Shown piece after piece: positions 12,662 through 27,326 of a stretch of 64,000 bases of DNA. The position numbers and the translations under genes were made by a program. Every line of letters begins with the position of its first letter. Position 1 is the stretch's first letter. The DNA is from Desulfurococcus amylolyticus Z-533 (GTDB lineage Archaea; Thermoproteota; Thermoprotei_A; Sulfolobales; Desulfurococcaceae): the NCBI RefSeq assembly GCF_000513855.1, contig NZ_KI911318.1, positions 1,117,327 through 1,181,326 on the forward strand, read 5' to 3'. The notes beneath the pieces were generated by a model. It was not told where the DNA came from and made no database searches. It saw only the letters and a list, made by a program, of their open reading frames with translations.

Positions 12662-13753
12662 ATGATTGATTACATAAACTTCGCCTTCATGTGCAGGGAG
12701 AAGCAGAGCGATACAGGAATAAGGATAGCCATAGTAGGTGCTGGACCAGCCGGGCTAGCGGCAACTGGATACCTGGCATGCCGGGGACACAGCATTGATG
12801 TATATGACAAGCAGCCTTACCCAGGCGGATTAATGATATTCGCTATACCACCCTGGAGAATACCGAGGAACAGGGTCTTAGAGGGCATGAAAGACCTAGA
12901 GAAGAGGCTGGGGGTTAGATTCATCACTAGAACCAAAGTATACGCCTCAGTAGAGATGCCTCACGAGGAGGGAGACGAGCTAGTCGAGAAGAAGACCAGC
13001 CTAGAGGAGTTGATAAGCAACTACGATCTAGTGCTATTATCAACGGGGACATGGAGATCGAAGATACCGAGGATCCAGGGGGCTAACGCTAAAGGCGTTG
13101 AAAGCGCCTTAGAATACGTGTATAAATTCAGACTCTACGAACTAGGACTAGTTAATTCAAAGCCTTCGGCAGGTAAGAAAGTAGTAGTTATAGGAGGCGG
13201 ATACAGTGCCATAGACGCTGCAGAACAGGCAGCAAAAGAAGGCGCCGAAGCCTACCTTGTATACAGGAGAACAATAAAGGAGGCTCCCGCAGGCATATTC
13301 GAGGTAGAGAGGGTGAAGAGGCTGGGGGTAGAATTCATGGAGCTGGTTTCACCAGTAGAGATAATTAGTGAAGGCAACGCGGTGAAAGCCATAAAGTTAC
13401 AGAGAATGCAGCTCGGACCCCCGGATGAAACAGGGCGCCCCCAGCCAATCCCCGTACCAGGCTCGGAGATCATCATCGAGGCAGATAGAGTAATATTCGC
13501 CACGGGCGAGTCGCCGACACCCCCATTACCCCAGTCCGAGGACTACATGAATAAGCTAGGGATAAGGCTAAATAAGGATGGATCAATAGTAGTGAATAAT
13601 ATAATGCAGACAGGTAATCCAAAAGTATTCGCGGCTGGAGACGTGGTAACAGGCCCCTCGAAGGTGGGCCGAGCAATAAAGAACGGCCTATACACAGCCA
13701 AATACATGCACAACTGGATAGAGGCTAAACTAGTTGCTTCAATAGCGAGGTGA
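12662..13753 (+). CDS. FAD/NAD(P)-dependent oxidoreductase, GltD-like, hydrogenase-associated
   Basis: This 363-residue protein has two Rossmann motifs: GAGPAG (~residue 26, FAD) and IGGGYSAIDAAEQA (~175, NAD(P)H). It also has the family's YPGGLMIFAIPPWRIPRN segment and the C-terminal FAD motif VFAAGDVVTGPSKVGRAI. It resembles the small subunit of glutamate synthase and NADPH:ferredoxin-type subunits, but lacks the long N-terminal Fe-S domain of GltD. It is the first gene of the hydrogenase operon and overlaps the next by four bases. I infer that it links NAD(P)(H) to the Fe-S subunit; direction and partner are not proven. Confidence 0.75.
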   Translation: MIDYINFAFMCREKQSDTGIRIAIVGAGPAGLAATGYLACRGHSIDVYDKQPYPGGLMIFAIPPWRIPRNRVLEGMKDLEKRLGVRFITRTKVYASVEMPHEEGDELVEKKTSLEELISNYDLVLLSTGTWRSKIPRIQGANAKGVESALEYVYKFRLYELGLVNSKPSAGKKVVVIGGGYSAIDAAEQAAKEGAEAYLVYRRTIKEAPAGIFEVERVKRLGVEFMELVSPVEIISEGNAVKAIKLQRMQLGPPDETGRPQPIPVPGSEIIIEADRVIFATGESPTPPLPQSEDYMNKLGIRLNKDGSIVVNNIMQTGNPKVFAAGDVVTGPSKVGRAIKNGLYTAKYMHNWIEAKLVASIAR

Positions 13754-14250
13754 CCTATATGAGTTCGAACCCGGGTAGATACTACAGGATAATAGACCTA
13801 GGGACATGCATAGGATGCGGCGCATGCGAGGCCGCATGCGATTTCATACATGATGGGCACCCGTATATAAAGGTATATAGGACGGAACTAGGCATTGAGA
13901 TACCCGTTTCATGCATGCACTGCGCTAAAGCTCCATGTATAGATGTCTGCCCAACAGGCGCGATGACCAGGGATAGTGAGGGAGCCGTGTACGTTGTAGC
14001 AAGCAAGTGCATCGGGTGCATGGCATGCCTATATGCATGCCCATTCGGCATCCCAGAGCTCGATAAATCACTAAGGGTATCAACTAAGTGCGACCTCTGC
14101 ATGGATCAAAGGAGGAAAGGATTGGAGCCAGGCTGTAGCTCTATATGTCCAGCCGGGGCAATAATATACGGGGAGGAAGCATTGGTATTCGATAAGGCGA
14201 AGAAGAAGGTAGCTGAAGCAATGGCGAGGGCAAGGTTCGAGACACTGTAG
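13750..14250 (+). CDS. Four-cluster ferredoxin-like subunit (HycB/DMSO-reductase-B type)
   Basis: This 166-residue Fe-S protein has four cysteine groups: CIGCGACEAAC (~residue 20), CMHCAKAPCIDVCP (~56), CIGCMACLYACP (~85) and the split CDLCMDQRRKG...CSSICP (~113-134). Together they can bind four [4Fe-4S] clusters, as in HycB, HydN and DmsB proteins that pass electrons between a catalytic dehydrogenase and a membrane complex. It starts at GTG 13750, overlapping the preceding stop, or at ATG 13759. Its place between the flavoprotein and the membrane subunits supports an electron-transfer role. Confidence 0.82.
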   Translation: MTYMSSNPGRYYRIIDLGTCIGCGACEAACDFIHDGHPYIKVYRTELGIEIPVSCMHCAKAPCIDVCPTGAMTRDSEGAVYVVASKCIGCMACLYACPFGIPELDKSLRVSTKCDLCMDQRRKGLEPGCSSICPAGAIIYGEEALVFDKAKKKVAEAMARARFETL

Positions 14251-14260
14251 GTGAAGCTAT

Positions 14261-15778
14261 GTGAACACGCTAGCCACTAGTATACTGCTCTATCTTTTCT
14301 CACTTGTAATACTCATATTCATAAGTAGACCATATTTAAATCCTTTACCCAGGTTTCTCATAAAACTGATCCCATATGGTTTAACCGGTTTAGCCATATA
14401 TCTCGAGTACAATAGTGGTTTAATAGATGATTTCCCCACACTACTAGCCTACACAACACTGGTTCTAGGATATATTATAGGCATATATTCAACATATTAT
14501 TTCAAGCTAGAGGAATACCATGGGAGATTCGATACCGTAATAGACTTATTCGTAATCCTTGTAGCTGCGACCTATGGCTCGCCAAACCTTATATCGCTGG
14601 CAGCAATGTGGTCAGCCGCAGAGATTATTGGATGGTACCTCATCGTTGAGGGAGAGGCACACTCCATAGAGGGCTCACTGAGATCCTCGAGAGGATACCT
14701 GCTTACATCAACACTTACATTCGAGATCTCCGTTTTCACAGTGATACTGGTCTCAATATTATCGGTAATGGCAACCATGGCCTCCGTGGACATAGGGTTC
14801 CTGATTAAGCCGTTTAAAACTATACCGTCTCACAGTGAGGCAAGCATATACTTTATTCCACTATTAATCGTTGGATTCATAGCTAAAACAGCAAATATCC
14901 CGCTACACTTCTGGCTACCCGGGGCGCATTCAGCAGCACCTTCACCGGCCTCAGCGATACTGAGTGGTTTAATGACTCCGCTGGGCTTCTACGGGTTATA
15001 CAGGGTGCTTAAACTAGTCGACTTATCGAGCTATAGCATGGAGCTAGCCATGGTCTTAGCCATCCTAGGATTCATGTCAGTTATCTATGGATGGATACAG
15101 GTATCTGCCCAGAGGGATGGTAAGAAAATACTCGCATATGCAACCATAGCGACAAACGGCTATATAAGCATGGTTTTCGCACTATATGTTCTCAACCCCT
15201 CCAACGGCATGGAAAACCTGCTCGGGCTCTCGATACTAATGCATGCAGCATATAAGGTAACGCTGTTTAGTGAAATGGGGTTGATCGAGGCATCTTACAG
15301 GACCAGGTATATACATGGTATAAGAGGACTCTCGAAAACACTGCCCCTGTCATCGATGGGGGGACTCCTGGCCGTGCTCACATTAATGGGTGCACCAGGT
15401 ACAATAGGTTTCACGGTTAAAGCGCTCTCAGTATACTATATCATATCCCAGGCATTAGACCCGGCTAGATTACTGATACTGGTGGGATTCATAACATATA
15501 TGGCGATATCAGCATACCTAGCCGTGAAATACATGACGATATACTTTAGCACGCCGCACCCACCCTTCCCAGAGGAACCCAGTGAGATACCTAGAGTAGC
15601 CCAGATACCCGTACTCGTCCTCGGCTTATCAAATGTCTACCTACCAATAGTATTGATACCATTACTTAAAGAATTAGCGGATTTAATCCTCCTGTTTTCA
15701 ATGGTGTCACCCCTGATGCTTCTCGCTACGGTACTCATGTACCTCACAGCGGCAAGAGAGAGGGGTGTTAAGCATTGA
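14261..15778 (+). CDS. Proton-translocating antiporter-like membrane subunit (NuoL/M/N family)
   Basis: This 505-residue protein has about 14 hydrophobic helices. It contains the key Glu in the MWSAAEIIGWYLIVEGEAHS region (~residue 125) and a conserved Lys followed by IPLHFWLPGAHSAAPSPASA (~212), hallmarks of the ion-pumping subunits of complex I and group 4 hydrogenases (HyfF/HycC/MrpD type). It begins at GTG 14261, ten bases after the ferredoxin subunit. It would couple electron transfer to proton or sodium export in the cytoplasmic membrane. Confidence 0.85.
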   Translation: MNTLATSILLYLFSLVILIFISRPYLNPLPRFLIKLIPYGLTGLAIYLEYNSGLIDDFPTLLAYTTLVLGYIIGIYSTYYFKLEEYHGRFDTVIDLFVILVAATYGSPNLISLAAMWSAAEIIGWYLIVEGEAHSIEGSLRSSRGYLLTSTLTFEISVFTVILVSILSVMATMASVDIGFLIKPFKTIPSHSEASIYFIPLLIVGFIAKTANIPLHFWLPGAHSAAPSPASAILSGLMTPLGFYGLYRVLKLVDLSSYSMELAMVLAILGFMSVIYGWIQVSAQRDGKKILAYATIATNGYISMVFALYVLNPSNGMENLLGLSILMHAAYKVTLFSEMGLIEASYRTRYIHGIRGLSKTLPLSSMGGLLAVLTLMGAPGTIGFTVKALSVYYIISQALDPARLLILVGFITYMAISAYLAVKYMTIYFSTPHPPFPEEPSEIPRVAQIPVLVLGLSNVYLPIVLIPLLKELADLILLFSMVSPLMLLATVLMYLTAARERGVKH

Positions 15779-17289
15779 GTATGATTCACGGTATAATCAC
15801 CTCGGCATCATACATACTCGTGTTAACAGGATCAGCGACAAGTGATAGCCTGACCAGGCTTAGCAGGGTGCTCAGAGTAATAGGTTTCGCTCTCCCATTA
15901 ATCGATACATTATTCAACCCAGCTGGGTTACTTGACTTTCAGAAATACTTCGTAGTGCTTGCAACACTCGTATCAGTGGCTGTAACCCTGCACTCGGAGG
16001 GGTACTATAGGGTAATTTATGGAAAAGTATCATATCAGCAATCACTATTAAATACCGTGCTTGTAACAGTGCTCACAGTGTTCAACGCCAGATTACTCGG
16101 GGAATTTGTCATTGGGCTGCTACTACTAGACCTGCTACTGATACTAGTGATTCTAATGGATAAGGGGGCTGAAAACTATGGGATAGCGATATACTATATA
16201 GTGTTAAGCACTATACCAGCCGACATGGCTGTTCTAACAATGTGGGCAACAATAGCACAGAACTATGGTTTAGAGGCGTCGCTGACAACGAGTTTTTCAA
16301 CGCTAGCACTACACAAGATCAGTATACACCCATTGGTGGCAACATTGATATTGATCGGGTACACTACAAAACTAGGGTTATTCCCACTACACATATGGCT
16401 ACCCATAGTACATCCAGAGGCACCTAAACACGGTTCAGCAATACTGAGCGGATTAATAATAAAGATGGGCGTCTTCGGGTTGCTTCTAGCCTCGATGATA
16501 TTCACATATCCCGGGTACATGAATTACATCATATTAGTACAGGGAGCGATAACGGCTTTATACGGGAGCTTCGCCGCGACACTTCAGAAAGATATTAGAA
16601 GACTACTGGCATATAGCTCGCTAGGGCATGCCGGAGTAATAGCCATACTATACTCGTTTTCAATACTCTATGGAGACCCCCTTATATCATATCTTTTATA
16701 CTTCTATATAATATACCATGGAGTAGTCAAGGCCCATGCATTCATGAATGCCGCGTTAATGGATCAATTAGCTAACACCTATGACATTTATAAACTAGGA
16801 TACCTTGGACAGTTATACCGGTCTTTAATCATTCCAGCCTTTAATATATTCATGAACTTCGCCGGAATACCGCCCTCTTACGGCTTCATGATGAAGCTAA
16901 TGCTTCTAATAACAATTATACTGCTCATACCGTCACTAGGGATTATACCATTACTTACAAGCATAATTATCATTGTAGTAGCCGTGTTCTCGATACTCTA
17001 CAGTATTAAGATAATTGGATGCTATATAGGGGGCTACAGAAAAGTCGTAAAACCCCCTGTAAAAGTCATGGAAGAGGAGTTATTCTCCGAGTACTATATC
17101 GCGTTCATCACGCTCATTCTCCCCATCATATACATAGCATTATCCATGGAGTACATGCCCGGCTACCTAGCTATTACACTACTGTTACTAGAAGCAATCT
17201 CCCTACTCATGTATACATGGATACTGTTTAGGAAGCCCATATATAAGACAGGTGAACCAAAATACTGGCTCTCAGGTGTTGAGCAATGA
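15775..17289 (+). CDS. Second antiporter-like membrane subunit (NuoL/M/N family)
   Basis: This 504-residue multi-pass protein is a paralogue of the preceding subunit. The conserved channel segment reads KLGLFPLHIWLPIVHPEAPKH (~residue 202) followed by GSAILSGLIIKMGVFGLLL, and a Lys lies in the following discontinuous helix region (LQKDIRRLLAYSSLGHAG). It starts at TTG 15775 and overlaps the previous stop by four bases. Two such pump subunits without the MrpB/C/E/F/G set point to a HycCD/Hyf-like arrangement rather than a Thermococcus Mbh arrangement. Confidence 0.83.
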   Translation: MSMIHGIITSASYILVLTGSATSDSLTRLSRVLRVIGFALPLIDTLFNPAGLLDFQKYFVVLATLVSVAVTLHSEGYYRVIYGKVSYQQSLLNTVLVTVLTVFNARLLGEFVIGLLLLDLLLILVILMDKGAENYGIAIYYIVLSTIPADMAVLTMWATIAQNYGLEASLTTSFSTLALHKISIHPLVATLILIGYTTKLGLFPLHIWLPIVHPEAPKHGSAILSGLIIKMGVFGLLLASMIFTYPGYMNYIILVQGAITALYGSFAATLQKDIRRLLAYSSLGHAGVIAILYSFSILYGDPLISYLLYFYIIYHGVVKAHAFMNAALMDQLANTYDIYKLGYLGQLYRSLIIPAFNIFMNFAGIPPSYGFMMKLMLLITIILLIPSLGIIPLLTSIIIIVVAVFSILYSIKIIGCYIGGYRKVVKPPVKVMEEELFSEYYIAFITLILPIIYIALSMEYMPGYLAITLLLLEAISLLMYTWILFRKPIYKTGEPKYWLSGVEQ

Positions 17290-17567
17290 GCTACATAAGG
17301 GCTAGCATAGTAAGATGGTTTGAAGAAATAGCTGAGAAGACCATGGAGAAGCTTAAATCAACACATAAGGGCACACTCCCAACGTTGATATCGAGTCTCA
17401 CGAATATCGGTGACGTGGTTTTCCCATACATCTCTCACCTCACCGACGTCTTATCTAGGAGGCTCAACAAGCTCCAGTTCACCATGATAGAGTCTATGTT
17501 ACTAGCATCACTATGGTTCGGCTTTATAGCAATACTCCTAGTTATTGTGACCATATTACTTGGGTGA
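17286..17567 (+). CDS. Small single-span membrane subunit of the hydrogenase complex
   Basis: This 93-residue protein has an amphipathic, charged N-terminal ~65 residues and one C-terminal transmembrane helix (MLLASLWFGFIAILLVIVTI). It overlaps the previous stop as ATGA and is followed after six bases by the NuoH-like gene, so it is almost certainly part of the complex. I do not recognise a named family. It may play the role of the small accessory subunits (NuoK/EchA-adjacent or C-terminal NuoL tail pieces) seen in other group 4 complexes. Confidence 0.65.
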   Translation: MSYIRASIVRWFEEIAEKTMEKLKSTHKGTLPTLISSLTNIGDVVFPYISHLTDVLSRRLNKLQFTMIESMLLASLWFGFIAILLVIVTILLG

Positions 17568-17573
17568 TGGGCC

Positions 17574-18449
17574 GTGGAGCAATTACTTGCCTTAACAGCT
17601 GTAGCTCTCGCAATCCTATTACCAGTATTATATGATGGCATCGAGCGGAAAACAAAGGCCATACTACAGAGTAGGGTGGGCCCACCACTTCATCAATCAC
17701 TGCTGGACCTAGGTAAACTATTATCTAAGGAGCCTGTGGAGTTCCCATCGTATCCACTAGTATTCTACACCACAGTACTCTCGATAATCCTAGAGTTCGC
17801 AGTGATACTAGTATTAAATATAGCAGTACTAGGGATAAACACCTCATTGTTAATGCCGGTGGCCATAGCATTAGTAACTGTGGCACAGACCGCAAACATA
17901 TCCATGCCGCTCCTAGTCTCGAATCCTTACTCACAGATCGGAGGTATGAGGGAAGTCATGTTAGCGCTTGTGAACGAGTTCTCCCTAGTGGCTGGGCTCG
18001 CCTTGTTCTACTACTACACAGTCTCCCAACACCCATCCAGCATTATGGGCTGGGTGATCGCTATGCCACTCATAATATTGGTTACCACAGCAACCTATGT
18101 TCTATCTGGTAGGGCACCATTCGACATCGCTGAGGCCGAGGTAGAGCTCGCATCCGGTGTACTTATAGAGTTAAGTGGTAGAGTCCTCGCTTTATACCTG
18201 TACTCGATATACTTGAAGCGATATGTTTCATCCATGCTTGCAGCGGTAGTAGTGTTTACGTTGATGCCGTTGAACCCCTTGATAAGATTCATCCTGGTGA
18301 ACGTATCTATCCCCTTCATATGGATACTGTACTCTATAACCAGTGTGATGCTTGGGAGGAGCCGTATAGATCTTGCTCCAGGCACCTTATTTAGGGTATA
18401 TATTGTCCTGTTAACGATATCTATAACAGGGTTATTGGTGATTAAATAA
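17574..18449 (+). CDS. NuoH/HycD-type membrane anchor subunit
   Basis: This 291-residue protein has about eight membrane helices. Signatures are ERKTKAILQSRVGPP near the N-terminus (~residue 25), the charged loop IGGMREVMLALVNEF (~122) and GRAPFDIAEAEVELASG (~182). These motifs form the interface between the Fe-S arm and the membrane arm in complex I, HycD and EchB. It begins with GTG, six bases after the small membrane gene, and its stop shares one base with the start of the large-subunit gene. Confidence 0.88.
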   Translation: MEQLLALTAVALAILLPVLYDGIERKTKAILQSRVGPPLHQSLLDLGKLLSKEPVEFPSYPLVFYTTVLSIILEFAVILVLNIAVLGINTSLLMPVAIALVTVAQTANISMPLLVSNPYSQIGGMREVMLALVNEFSLVAGLALFYYYTVSQHPSSIMGWVIAMPLIILVTTATYVLSGRAPFDIAEAEVELASGVLIELSGRVLALYLYSIYLKRYVSSMLAAVVVFTLMPLNPLIRFILVNVSIPFIWILYSITSVMLGRSRIDLAPGTLFRVYIVLLTISITGLLVIK

Positions 18450-20086
18450 TGCATTCCCAGACGCTTCTAGATAGATACATCCAGCTAGCTGGGAAACTAG
18501 GCGGCAAGCATCTCGTGGAAGGAGACATGGTACACTTATACATACCCCGTGAAAACCTGGTTAAGGCTGCCTCCACATTGTTCAATGAATACAGACTAAC
18601 ACATAGGACGTGCGTCGCAATAGATGAGAGGCCGTTAAACGGCTTCTTCACGCTGACACATATATTCACGGATGACTCATCGAGGCTATATGTATTAGTG
18701 AAAACATACCTTGAGGGAGATAACCCGGTTGCACCCAGCATAGTTGGCGAGGTACCAGCCGCGGACTGGTGTGAGCTGGAAGCAATGGATTTACTAGGGA
18801 TACAATTCGAGGGGAGGAGAAGAGAGAGACTTGTTCTACCACCATACTGGCCCGATGGAGTATACCCATTAAGGAAGGAGTTCTCATATGATCAAAGGCT
18901 AAACCTCCATGCGGTATCGGAGAAAATAGAGCAGGCTGGGGAAACCGGGGTACCAGTGCCTATAGGACCCTATCACCCGGCTCTCCACGAGCCAGAGTAC
19001 TTCGAGCTGTATGTTGAAGGAGAGCGGATCTTAGACGTTAAATACAGAGGATTCCATGTACATCGTGGAATAGAGAAACTAGCTGAATCCAGAATGACGT
19101 ATCAACAGGTAAACTTTCTAGCAGAGAGGATATGCGGTATATGTGGCTTCGAGCACAGTACATGTTACGCCTTGGCAGTTGAAAAAGCTGCTAAACTAGA
19201 TGTACCGGAGAGAGCGCAATTCATTAGAAGCATAGTCCTCGAAGTTGAGAGGCTGCACAGCCACCTACTATGGCTCGGCGTCGCATTCCACACCCTTGGA
19301 TATGATGCCGGCTTCATGCATATGTGGCGTATAAGGGAAAAGGTAATGGAGCTGGCTGAAGCATTAACCGGGAGTAGGAAAACATATGGTATAAACATGG
19401 TTGGTGGGGTACGGAGAGACATAAATGAGGAGAAGAGAAAGAAGACCATTGAAGTACTCAACGAGTTGGAGAAAGAGTTCAGTAAGATAATAGATGTCGC
19501 GATAAGCGTCCCACAAGTCAAGAAGAGGTTGACAGGTACAGGAGTACTACCAAAGGAGTGGGCCGTAAAGCTAGGAGTCGAAGGCCCTGTTGCAAGGGCT
19601 TCAGGTGTAGACAGGGATGCCAGGAGGGATTTACCATACGCAGCCTACAAGCATGCATCATTCAAGGTCCCGGTTTACACCGAGGGAGACAACATGGCTA
19701 GGGCACTAGTTAGAGTTGACGAGGTGAAGGAGTCAATGTCGATAATAATACAACTACTAGACGCCATACCCAGGGGTCCCATAATGCTTGATAAGTATGA
19801 GATACCTGAGGGAAGGATAGGGGTCCAGGTGGTTGAGGCCCCTAGGGGAGGAGATATACACTACGTGTTGACAGGTAAAGGGAAACCATATAGGTGGAGG
19901 GTCCGGGCTCCAACATATAATAACATCCCAGCGCTGAGGATAATGCTGAGGGATCAATCCCTAGCTGATGCACCGCTCACAATAGCCAGTATAGACCCAT
20001 GCTTCTCATGTACTGATAGAATCATGGTTATAAGAGAGAATGGAAGAGTGGAGAGAATTAGTTTTAACAGGGGTGTTCCACTATGA
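18449..20086 (+). CDS. [NiFe]-hydrogenase large subunit, group 4, NuoC-NuoD fusion (HycE-like)
   Basis: This is a 545-residue catalytic subunit. Residues ~1-150 match the 30-kDa NuoC-like domain (WCELEAMDLLGIQFEGRRRERL). The remainder is NuoD/HycE-like. Both nickel-binding motifs are intact: RICGICGFEH (~residue 228) and DPCFSCTDR (~517), unlike complex I, which has lost them. About 20 residues follow the second motif, so an endopeptidase of the HycI type should be needed for maturation. No hyp or protease gene lies in the window. The domain fusion and the CTDR ending favour a formate-hydrogenlyase-like class. Start ATG 18449. Confidence 0.9.
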   Translation: MHSQTLLDRYIQLAGKLGGKHLVEGDMVHLYIPRENLVKAASTLFNEYRLTHRTCVAIDERPLNGFFTLTHIFTDDSSRLYVLVKTYLEGDNPVAPSIVGEVPAADWCELEAMDLLGIQFEGRRRERLVLPPYWPDGVYPLRKEFSYDQRLNLHAVSEKIEQAGETGVPVPIGPYHPALHEPEYFELYVEGERILDVKYRGFHVHRGIEKLAESRMTYQQVNFLAERICGICGFEHSTCYALAVEKAAKLDVPERAQFIRSIVLEVERLHSHLLWLGVAFHTLGYDAGFMHMWRIREKVMELAEALTGSRKTYGINMVGGVRRDINEEKRKKTIEVLNELEKEFSKIIDVAISVPQVKKRLTGTGVLPKEWAVKLGVEGPVARASGVDRDARRDLPYAAYKHASFKVPVYTEGDNMARALVRVDEVKESMSIIIQLLDAIPRGPIMLDKYEIPEGRIGVQVVEAPRGGDIHYVLTGKGKPYRWRVRAPTYNNIPALRIMLRDQSLADAPLTIASIDPCFSCTDRIMVIRENGRVERISFNRGVPL

Positions 20087-20598
20087 GTAAACTCCTTAAA
20101 CCAGTTAAACTAGTAGTAATAGCTAGTGAAGCAGGAAGAGTAACAAGGAAGTATCCGTTTGAAGAACCACTTGTAACACCGGACTTCAGGGGTAAAATAG
20201 AGATAAATGCCTCCAAATGCATTGGATGCGGTGCATGCGTTAATGCATGCCCACCAAACGCGTTACAGTTAATAGAGGATAAGGAGAAACTAGTGCTAAG
20301 ATATTTCATCGGGAGATGCATATTCTGCTGGAGATGCATAGACGTATGTCCTACAGGCGCAATCAAGGGGACCCGGGAGTTCGAGCTGGCTACAGATGAT
20401 ATTTCAGACCTCTACACGCACGTAGTACACTCAAGGAAAGTATGTGCATCATGCGGCAATACCTATGCAACAGAGAAAATAATACGCTATGTAGCGGAAC
20501 ACGCGTCCTTAAGTGAGGAATACCTGGATAAATGCCCTGATTGCAGGAAAAGAAACTTCATTAAGGCATTATCAAGGAGGAGGGGCGGCTTTGAATAG
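20083..20598 (+). CDS. NuoI-like 2x[4Fe-4S] ferredoxin subunit with C-terminal Cys cluster
   Basis: This 171-residue subunit overlaps the large-subunit stop as ATGA. Two ferredoxin motifs, CIGCGACVNACP (~residue 46) and CIFCWRCIDVCP (~86), carry electrons to the small subunit. The C-terminal region adds CASCGN (~126) and CPDC (~154), a possible zinc ribbon or extra metal site; HycF-type subunits have similar tails. AAGGAGGAGGGG at ~20573-20585 lies inside its 3' end and serves the next gene, which starts eight bases before this stop. Confidence 0.85.
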   Translation: MSKLLKPVKLVVIASEAGRVTRKYPFEEPLVTPDFRGKIEINASKCIGCGACVNACPPNALQLIEDKEKLVLRYFIGRCIFCWRCIDVCPTGAIKGTREFELATDDISDLYTHVVHSRKVCASCGNTYATEKIIRYVAEHASLSEEYLDKCPDCRKRNFIKALSRRRGGFE

Positions 20599-21060
20599 TC
20601 TCTTAAAAAAGAGTATATGGGTATTCCATTTAAACACAGGTAGTTGTAATGCCTGCGATATAGAAATACTCGACGCCTTGACCCCGTTCCATGATGCAGA
20701 GAGATTCGGTGTTAAACTAGTAGGGTCCCCGAGGCACGCTGACGTGATATTGTTAACAGGGCCAATAACTATTGAAACGCTCCCTAAAGTAATAAACGCT
20801 ATAGAGGCTGCACCGCGCCCAAGAATAATAGTGGCACTAGGATCCTGCGGTGTTGGAGGCGGTATATGGCATGACACGTATTCAACCATCGGAGGCGTGA
20901 GGAGCCTGAAAAAATCCTGGATGAAAAGGGTATACAGGTCGACGGGATATACTATGTGCCAGGATGCCCTATAAGGCCTGAAGCCCTCCTATATGCTATC
21001 GCGTTGATAAAGGGACTTGTATCAAAGAAGGTGAAGGGGGAGATAAAGTACGCCGAGTAA
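20591..21060 (+). CDS. NuoB/HycG-type [NiFe]-hydrogenase small subunit, split by a -1 frame shift
   Basis: The small subunit holds the proximal [4Fe-4S] cluster. Starting at TTG 20591, frame 0 shows GSCNACDIE (~residue 18) and ALGSCGVGGGIW (~89), then runs into unrelated sequence and a stop at 20974. The -1 frame resumes exactly at a run of six A (20909-20914) with EKILDEKGIQVDGIYYVPGC and IRPEALLYAIALIKG, ending at 21060. It supplies the fourth cluster Cys (PGCP). One extra A would restore a ~156-residue protein. The cause may be sequencing error, mutation or programmed slippage. Confidence 0.8.
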
Positions 21061-21092
21061 GCTTGCCGCATATATATGTAAATACATACATC

Positions 21093-26680: not shown

Positions 26681-27326
26681 CCTGGCTTACTGCCCTCATG
26701 AATTGTTTTTGTTTTTATATGTTTTATAGTTGTTGATGTTGGTTTATATTGTTTGATGCTCTGTTCCTCTGGTATAATTATTGCGTATACTTTTTTACCG
26801 TGGAGCTCCTTTACTTTATCTCTATTTTCTCTGCTTATCTGGTATAACGCGTAGTAGTCCCCTATACTTGATAACACTGCATTTAACAACATGTTCCGAG
26901 GGCAGCGATGAGAAGATAATAGAATTCCTGAAGCTATTCCGTGATGCAACACAGATTGTTGTAAATAGGATTTGGAGTCTAGATACAATACCATCAATGA
27001 AAACACTACACAAGATGTTCTACAAGGAGCTTAGGGTATATGGTTTTAGAGCCCACCACGCTAAGCATGTATACAGCTATGCTAGAGCAATTGTTAAATC
27101 TGCTAGGAAGAGGAATAGTAAGAAACCTATTCTAAGGAAGTTAACCGCTAGGATAGACAGGTACGATTACAAACTGGATCTAGAGAGTAGAACCCTTATA
27201 CTGAAACTCCATAACGGCTATGATGCAAGGCTAAGCTGTTGATGCCTAGGGATAAACCCAAGAGGGATGCAGGGGAACAGGGATGAAGGGATGAAACAAG
27301 CTTATATAAACCTATATGAGACCTGA
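26681..27326 (+). pseudogene. tnpB: Decayed IS200/IS605 TnpB gene (N-terminal part plus C-terminal tail)
   Basis: Bases ~26896-27242 encode a typical TnpB N-terminal helical region (SDEKIIEFLKLFRDATQIVV, then LHKMFYKELRVYGFRAHHAK). An in-frame TGA at 27240 is followed, in the same frame, by the C-terminal tail INPRGMQGNRDEGMKQAYIN up to TGA 27324. The whole RuvC nuclease core (>200 residues) is missing, so the gene cannot be active. On the opposite strand 26690-26900 has an unassigned protein-like frame with GKKVYAIIIPEEQ that could be another mobile-element fragment. Confidence 0.75.

Follow-up and report, generated by a model that had tools for sequence, protein, structure and literature searches.

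Whether the break in the reading frame of the NuoB/HycG-like small-subunit gene reflects a programmed -1 frameshift, a real mutation or an error in the record is the question raised by this locus. The window analysed here, a stretch of 64,000 nucleotides (G000:C1:1117327-1181326), is part of a single contig of 1,307,099 bases from a heat-loving archaeon. The gene is composed of the following parts.

20591..20974, + strand: frame-0 open reading frame of the NuoB/HycG-like small subunit, 127 aa from the TTG at 20591, normal until the A run and then continuing for 19 out-of-frame codons to a stop
20909..20914, + strand: run of six A within the codons CTG AAA AAA TCC, where the frame breaks by -1
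20914..21061, + strand: conserved end of the small subunit in the -1 frame, ILDEK...PGCP...KYAE, with the stop at 21061

A preliminary description of this DNA had proposed that the gene reads normally up to the A6 run and regains its conserved PGCP end after a -1 shift. This was confirmed, as the tblastn matches to relatives lay in two frames and switched exactly at the A6 run, and the -1 frame product downstream of the run, ILDEKGIQVDGIYYVPGCPIRPEA...KYAE, terminates at 21061. In family searches, the frame-0 part and the -1 part both matched NuoB (PRK06411) and Pfam Oxidored_q6. When read through, the small subunit has 156 aa and aligns to its relatives without gaps, with identity up to 87%. 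It had also been stated that the cluster site is incomplete without the shift. Indeed, the frame-0 product stops at 20974 without PGCP, so that three of the four cluster Cys (CxxC, GSC, PGCP) of an Oxidored_q6 small subunit are found in this protein and the fourth sits in the -1 frame; all four are present in the close full-length homologues. The shift is truly in the recorded sequence and is no chance reading, and it is not unique within the genome. Plasmids and viral contigs were searched for the same DNA, and no match was found.

An independent downstream gene in the -1 frame was rejected, because a search for a start codon (ATG, GTG, or TTG) in that frame ahead of the A6 run found none, the frame being open upstream only to 20875, and a separate gene start is thus unavailable. 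For the sequence beyond the break, read in the -1 frame, pN/pS against relatives was 0.17-0.20, and values of 0.12-0.30 were obtained among the intact relatives themselves. Purifying selection therefore acts on the -1 frame downstream of the break, in agreement with the earlier remark that this frame has not decayed. The absence of decay indicates that the lesion is either recent or unreal, and it fits such a lesion as well as it fits a programmed shift.

The gene belongs to an operon at 12662-21061, in which the other ORFs are full length. The other members are listed below.

12662..13753, + strand: GltD/SudA-like NAD(P)H-dehydrogenase subunit (NF009409, PRK12770)
13750..14250, + strand: FdhB/HybA-like 4Fe-4S electron-transfer protein, by family match
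14261-15778 and 15775-17289, + strand: two antiporter-like membrane subunits, intact
17286..17567, + strand: small membrane protein, with no match in family searches
17574..18449, + strand: NuoH-like membrane subunit, intact
18449..20086, + strand: NuoC/NuoD-like large subunit, intact, with the 30 and 49 kDa domains in a single chain and CxxC motifs at the N- and C-terminal ends
20083..20598, + strand: HycF/NuoI-like 2[4Fe-4S] subunit, intact

The integrity of the remaining subunits had been pointed out before and holds, and it is as compatible with a recent or an unreal lesion as with a programmed shift. A SudA/GltD-like subunit is combined here with MBX/complex-I-like subunits in an operon without FdhA. 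A dehydrogenase-linked MBX complex, with a SudA homologue replacing formate dehydrogenase, has been described in T. aggregans (PMC3035292), and the complex encoded in the window matches this known NADPH-dehydrogenase-linked MBX type rather than a formate hydrogenlyase. In a genome of the same family (1,316,595 bases), the small-subunit gene is intact and located at 42.5 kb. Among the stretches compared, the gene order shared with the same-genus genome (G001) ends just past the operon, from about 21300 onward in the window and at about 47300 in G001. A short ORF at 26781-27242 of the window stops early and probably represents the beginning of a TnpB/OrfB-type transposon protein.

The homologues of the small subunit in genomes of the same genus, family, and order are informative about the break, and comparing the gene in close relatives had been suggested as a check. 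All of the full-length homologues checked read through with no need of a shift, and the longest A run at the site in them ranges from 2 to 5, with no A6 or longer; the shift site is not conserved at any of the three levels. This comparison left the programmed reading unsupported. The gene would then be an ordinary small-subunit gene of a dehydrogenase-linked MBX-type complex with a one-base loss at or beside the A tract and no recoding signal. Taking sequencing or assembly error and recent real contraction jointly, we consider such an unprogrammed loss very probable, and a small remaining probability goes to readings not thought of. The one-base loss is supported by the read-through homologues, the absence of recoding hallmarks, other small-indel breaks in the genome, a run of 100 N, and the lack of decay.

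The other breaks emerged from a larger sample. In a first sample of 424 kb, the small-subunit gene appeared as the sole clean break among non-mobile conserved genes. This was overturned when 824 kb of the window's genome (G000) were compared with 840 kb of the same-genus genome G001 (1,314,639 bases), covering 408 genes and 122,375 aligned residues. By frame-aware alignment, at least four further conserved genes were found to be broken by unrelated small indels; the names given to the four below come from a reading of their sequences.

G000:C1 ~784939: putative dihydroorotase-like gene, with a 25-bp tandem duplication
G000:C1 ~832016: gene o1_221, with a 22-bp tandem duplication
G000:C1 ~604001: putative PLP cysteine-synthase-like gene, with one base lost close to a C run, and with a G12 run (C12 on the + strand)
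G000:C1 ~693600: putative 2-oxoacid:ferredoxin oxidoreductase alpha-like gene, with a one-base gain

The two-frame matches at about 582, 614, 663, and 680 kb (55-60% identity) were excluded from this count. Several two-frame matches were rejected as breaks as they were N-terminal extensions or non-coding ORFs, and further ones as they were remnants of a repeated transposase-like gene. Decayed multi-frame remains of a transposase-like gene, several copies of which occur in G001, lie at G000:C1 ~1002058-1002738. With the small subunit included, 5 of 408 genes were broken in G000 versus 1 of 418 when the comparison was reversed (Fisher p = 0.12), an excess that is suggestive only. The one gene found in the reverse direction, coding for an ABC-transporter ATPase, is frameshifted in G001 (G001:C1 ~352765) and intact in G000.

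The quality of the assembly was also considered. Although the record is counted as one contig, it contains exactly 100 N in a row at G000:C1:572384-572483. This run is read as a scaffold gap, although a withheld stretch of sequence would also appear as N, and it suggests that the record is probably a draft scaffold. The assembly does contain A7/T7 runs elsewhere, and run lengths are distributed in it much as in the comparison genome. The number of mononucleotide runs declines steadily over lengths 3 to 6, and in both the 824 kb of G000 and the 840 kb of G001 the runs of at least 7 fall far short of what this trend predicts; from length 6 to length 7, the G/C runs fall from 151 to 1 and from 281 to 3 in the two genomes. 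Since both genomes drop sharply at runs of 7 or more, this comparison gave no sign of systematic homopolymer truncation in the assembly.

The choice between error and mutation for the missing base is one that we infer. We give an even chance, slightly above that of a real mutation, to an error made in sequencing or assembling a draft scaffold. The error would be in keeping with the G12 run, with the probable scaffold gap, and with the short duplications, which are perfect and possibly represent uncollapsed joins. On the other hand, the 22- and 25-bp duplications are atypical as read errors, and could have arisen by real mutation or from contig joins left uncollapsed.

The other half of the one-base loss supposes that the gene of the sequenced strain really did contract by one base, and recently; the complex would be lost or weakened, perhaps with some unprogrammed leaky slippage at the A tract; we place this somewhat below an even chance. 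In S. acidocaldarius, 66% of the spontaneous pyrE mutations are tract frameshifts and 8% are duplications of more than 5 bp (PMC7785828). The mix of lesions in G000 is the same as in this spectrum (PMC7785828), and the rarity of runs of 7 or more in both compared genomes likewise favours a real mutation. As both kinds of lesion, frameshifts in tracts and short tandem duplications, typically arise by spontaneous mutation in a crenarchaeon (PMC7785828), the probability of a real mutation comes close to that of an error. Additionally, frameshifts at the pyrE A7 tract (bp 545-551) were omitted from the published spectra as phenotypically leaky (PMC3139894, PMC7785828), and partial function could be retained in this way with no programmed shift. 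A paralogue of the small subunit is encoded intact at 440 kb, and the MBH-like cluster at about 440-449 kb of G000 may carry the load in such a mutant. Against a real mutation, the record resembles a draft scaffold with other suspicious joins, and the allele is known from the assembly alone.

A programmed -1 shift, in which the tRNA-Lys on the second AAA slips one base back onto an identical AAA and the 156-aa and 127-aa products are made at a set ratio, appears very improbable. As had been noticed before, the two frame-0 AAA codons in CTG AAA AAA TCC do allow a slip by a single tRNA, and the shift would restore a conserved protein on which purifying selection acts. The archaeal fucosidase gene cited earlier as a precedent is also genuine: fucA1 of S. 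solfataricus, with a -1 shift at A-AAA-AAT, is one cellular case in archaea (PMC8211752). However, the relatives need no shift, and the frame-0 heptamer here is G-AAA-AAA rather than the A-AAA-AAT of fucA1; it does not have the X-XXY-YYZ form of a slippery heptamer, so that only the single-tRNA slip is available. A stimulatory structure 5-9 nt downstream was sought among pseudoknot-free folds, and none was found beyond chance, with z-scores versus shuffles of +0.44 (20915-21000) and -0.30 (20860-21000). Moreover, across 158 conserved genes of this genome, AAA AAA is found in frame at 13 other places with no shift required, one of them also behind CTG (CTG AAA AAA GCT). No use is evident for a truncated product that lacks the fourth cluster ligand, and other conserved genes of the genome carry unrelated small-indel breaks. 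The undecayed downstream frame is the one remaining positive point of the programmed reading, and it is equally expected from a lesion that is recent or unreal. If the reading did hold, this would be a second archaeal cellular gene with a -1 slip at AAA AAA, structure-free, for a subunit of an energy-conserving complex, and a habit private to the species, which we regard as highly unlikely. Thus, where the preliminary description had offered an artefact or a programmed shift, the artefact stood, together with the real one-base mutation that it had not listed, and the programmed shift did not (site unconserved, no X-XXY-YYZ, no structure beyond chance, other broken genes).

Programmed -1 frameshifting in archaeal cellular genes rests on one gene, since fucA1 of Saccharolobus solfataricus is the only case reported (PMC8211752), and a second case would matter if true. 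Literature searches covering programmed frameshifting in archaea and frameshift errors in assemblies brought up nothing more. A lone homopolymer break in one assembly is weak evidence for such a case, because other conserved genes in the same record have unrelated small-indel breaks.

The one-base loss can be compared with three known systems. The operon is similar to Tagg_0050-0059 of Thermosphaera aggregans (PMC3035292) in having a SudA/GltD-like subunit in the place of FdhA, 4Fe-4S subunits, and MBX/complex-I-like subunits, and it differs in that its last subunit gene is one base out of frame. Similar to the A7 frameshifts in pyrE of S. acidocaldarius (PMC3139894, PMC7785828), the break alters a crenarchaeal gene by one base at an A tract; however, the pyrE cases are laboratory mutants under selection, unlike the small-subunit allele, which comes from the assembly. 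The locus shares with fucA1 (PMC8211752) an A-rich run, two parts of a conserved protein joined by a -1 shift, and intact relatives. Its site is G-AAA-AAA, with no structure seen and nothing conserved, whereas fucA1 combines A-AAA-AAT with rare codons and a putative stem-loop, is common to two strains, and has its full-length product detected in cells (PMC8211752).
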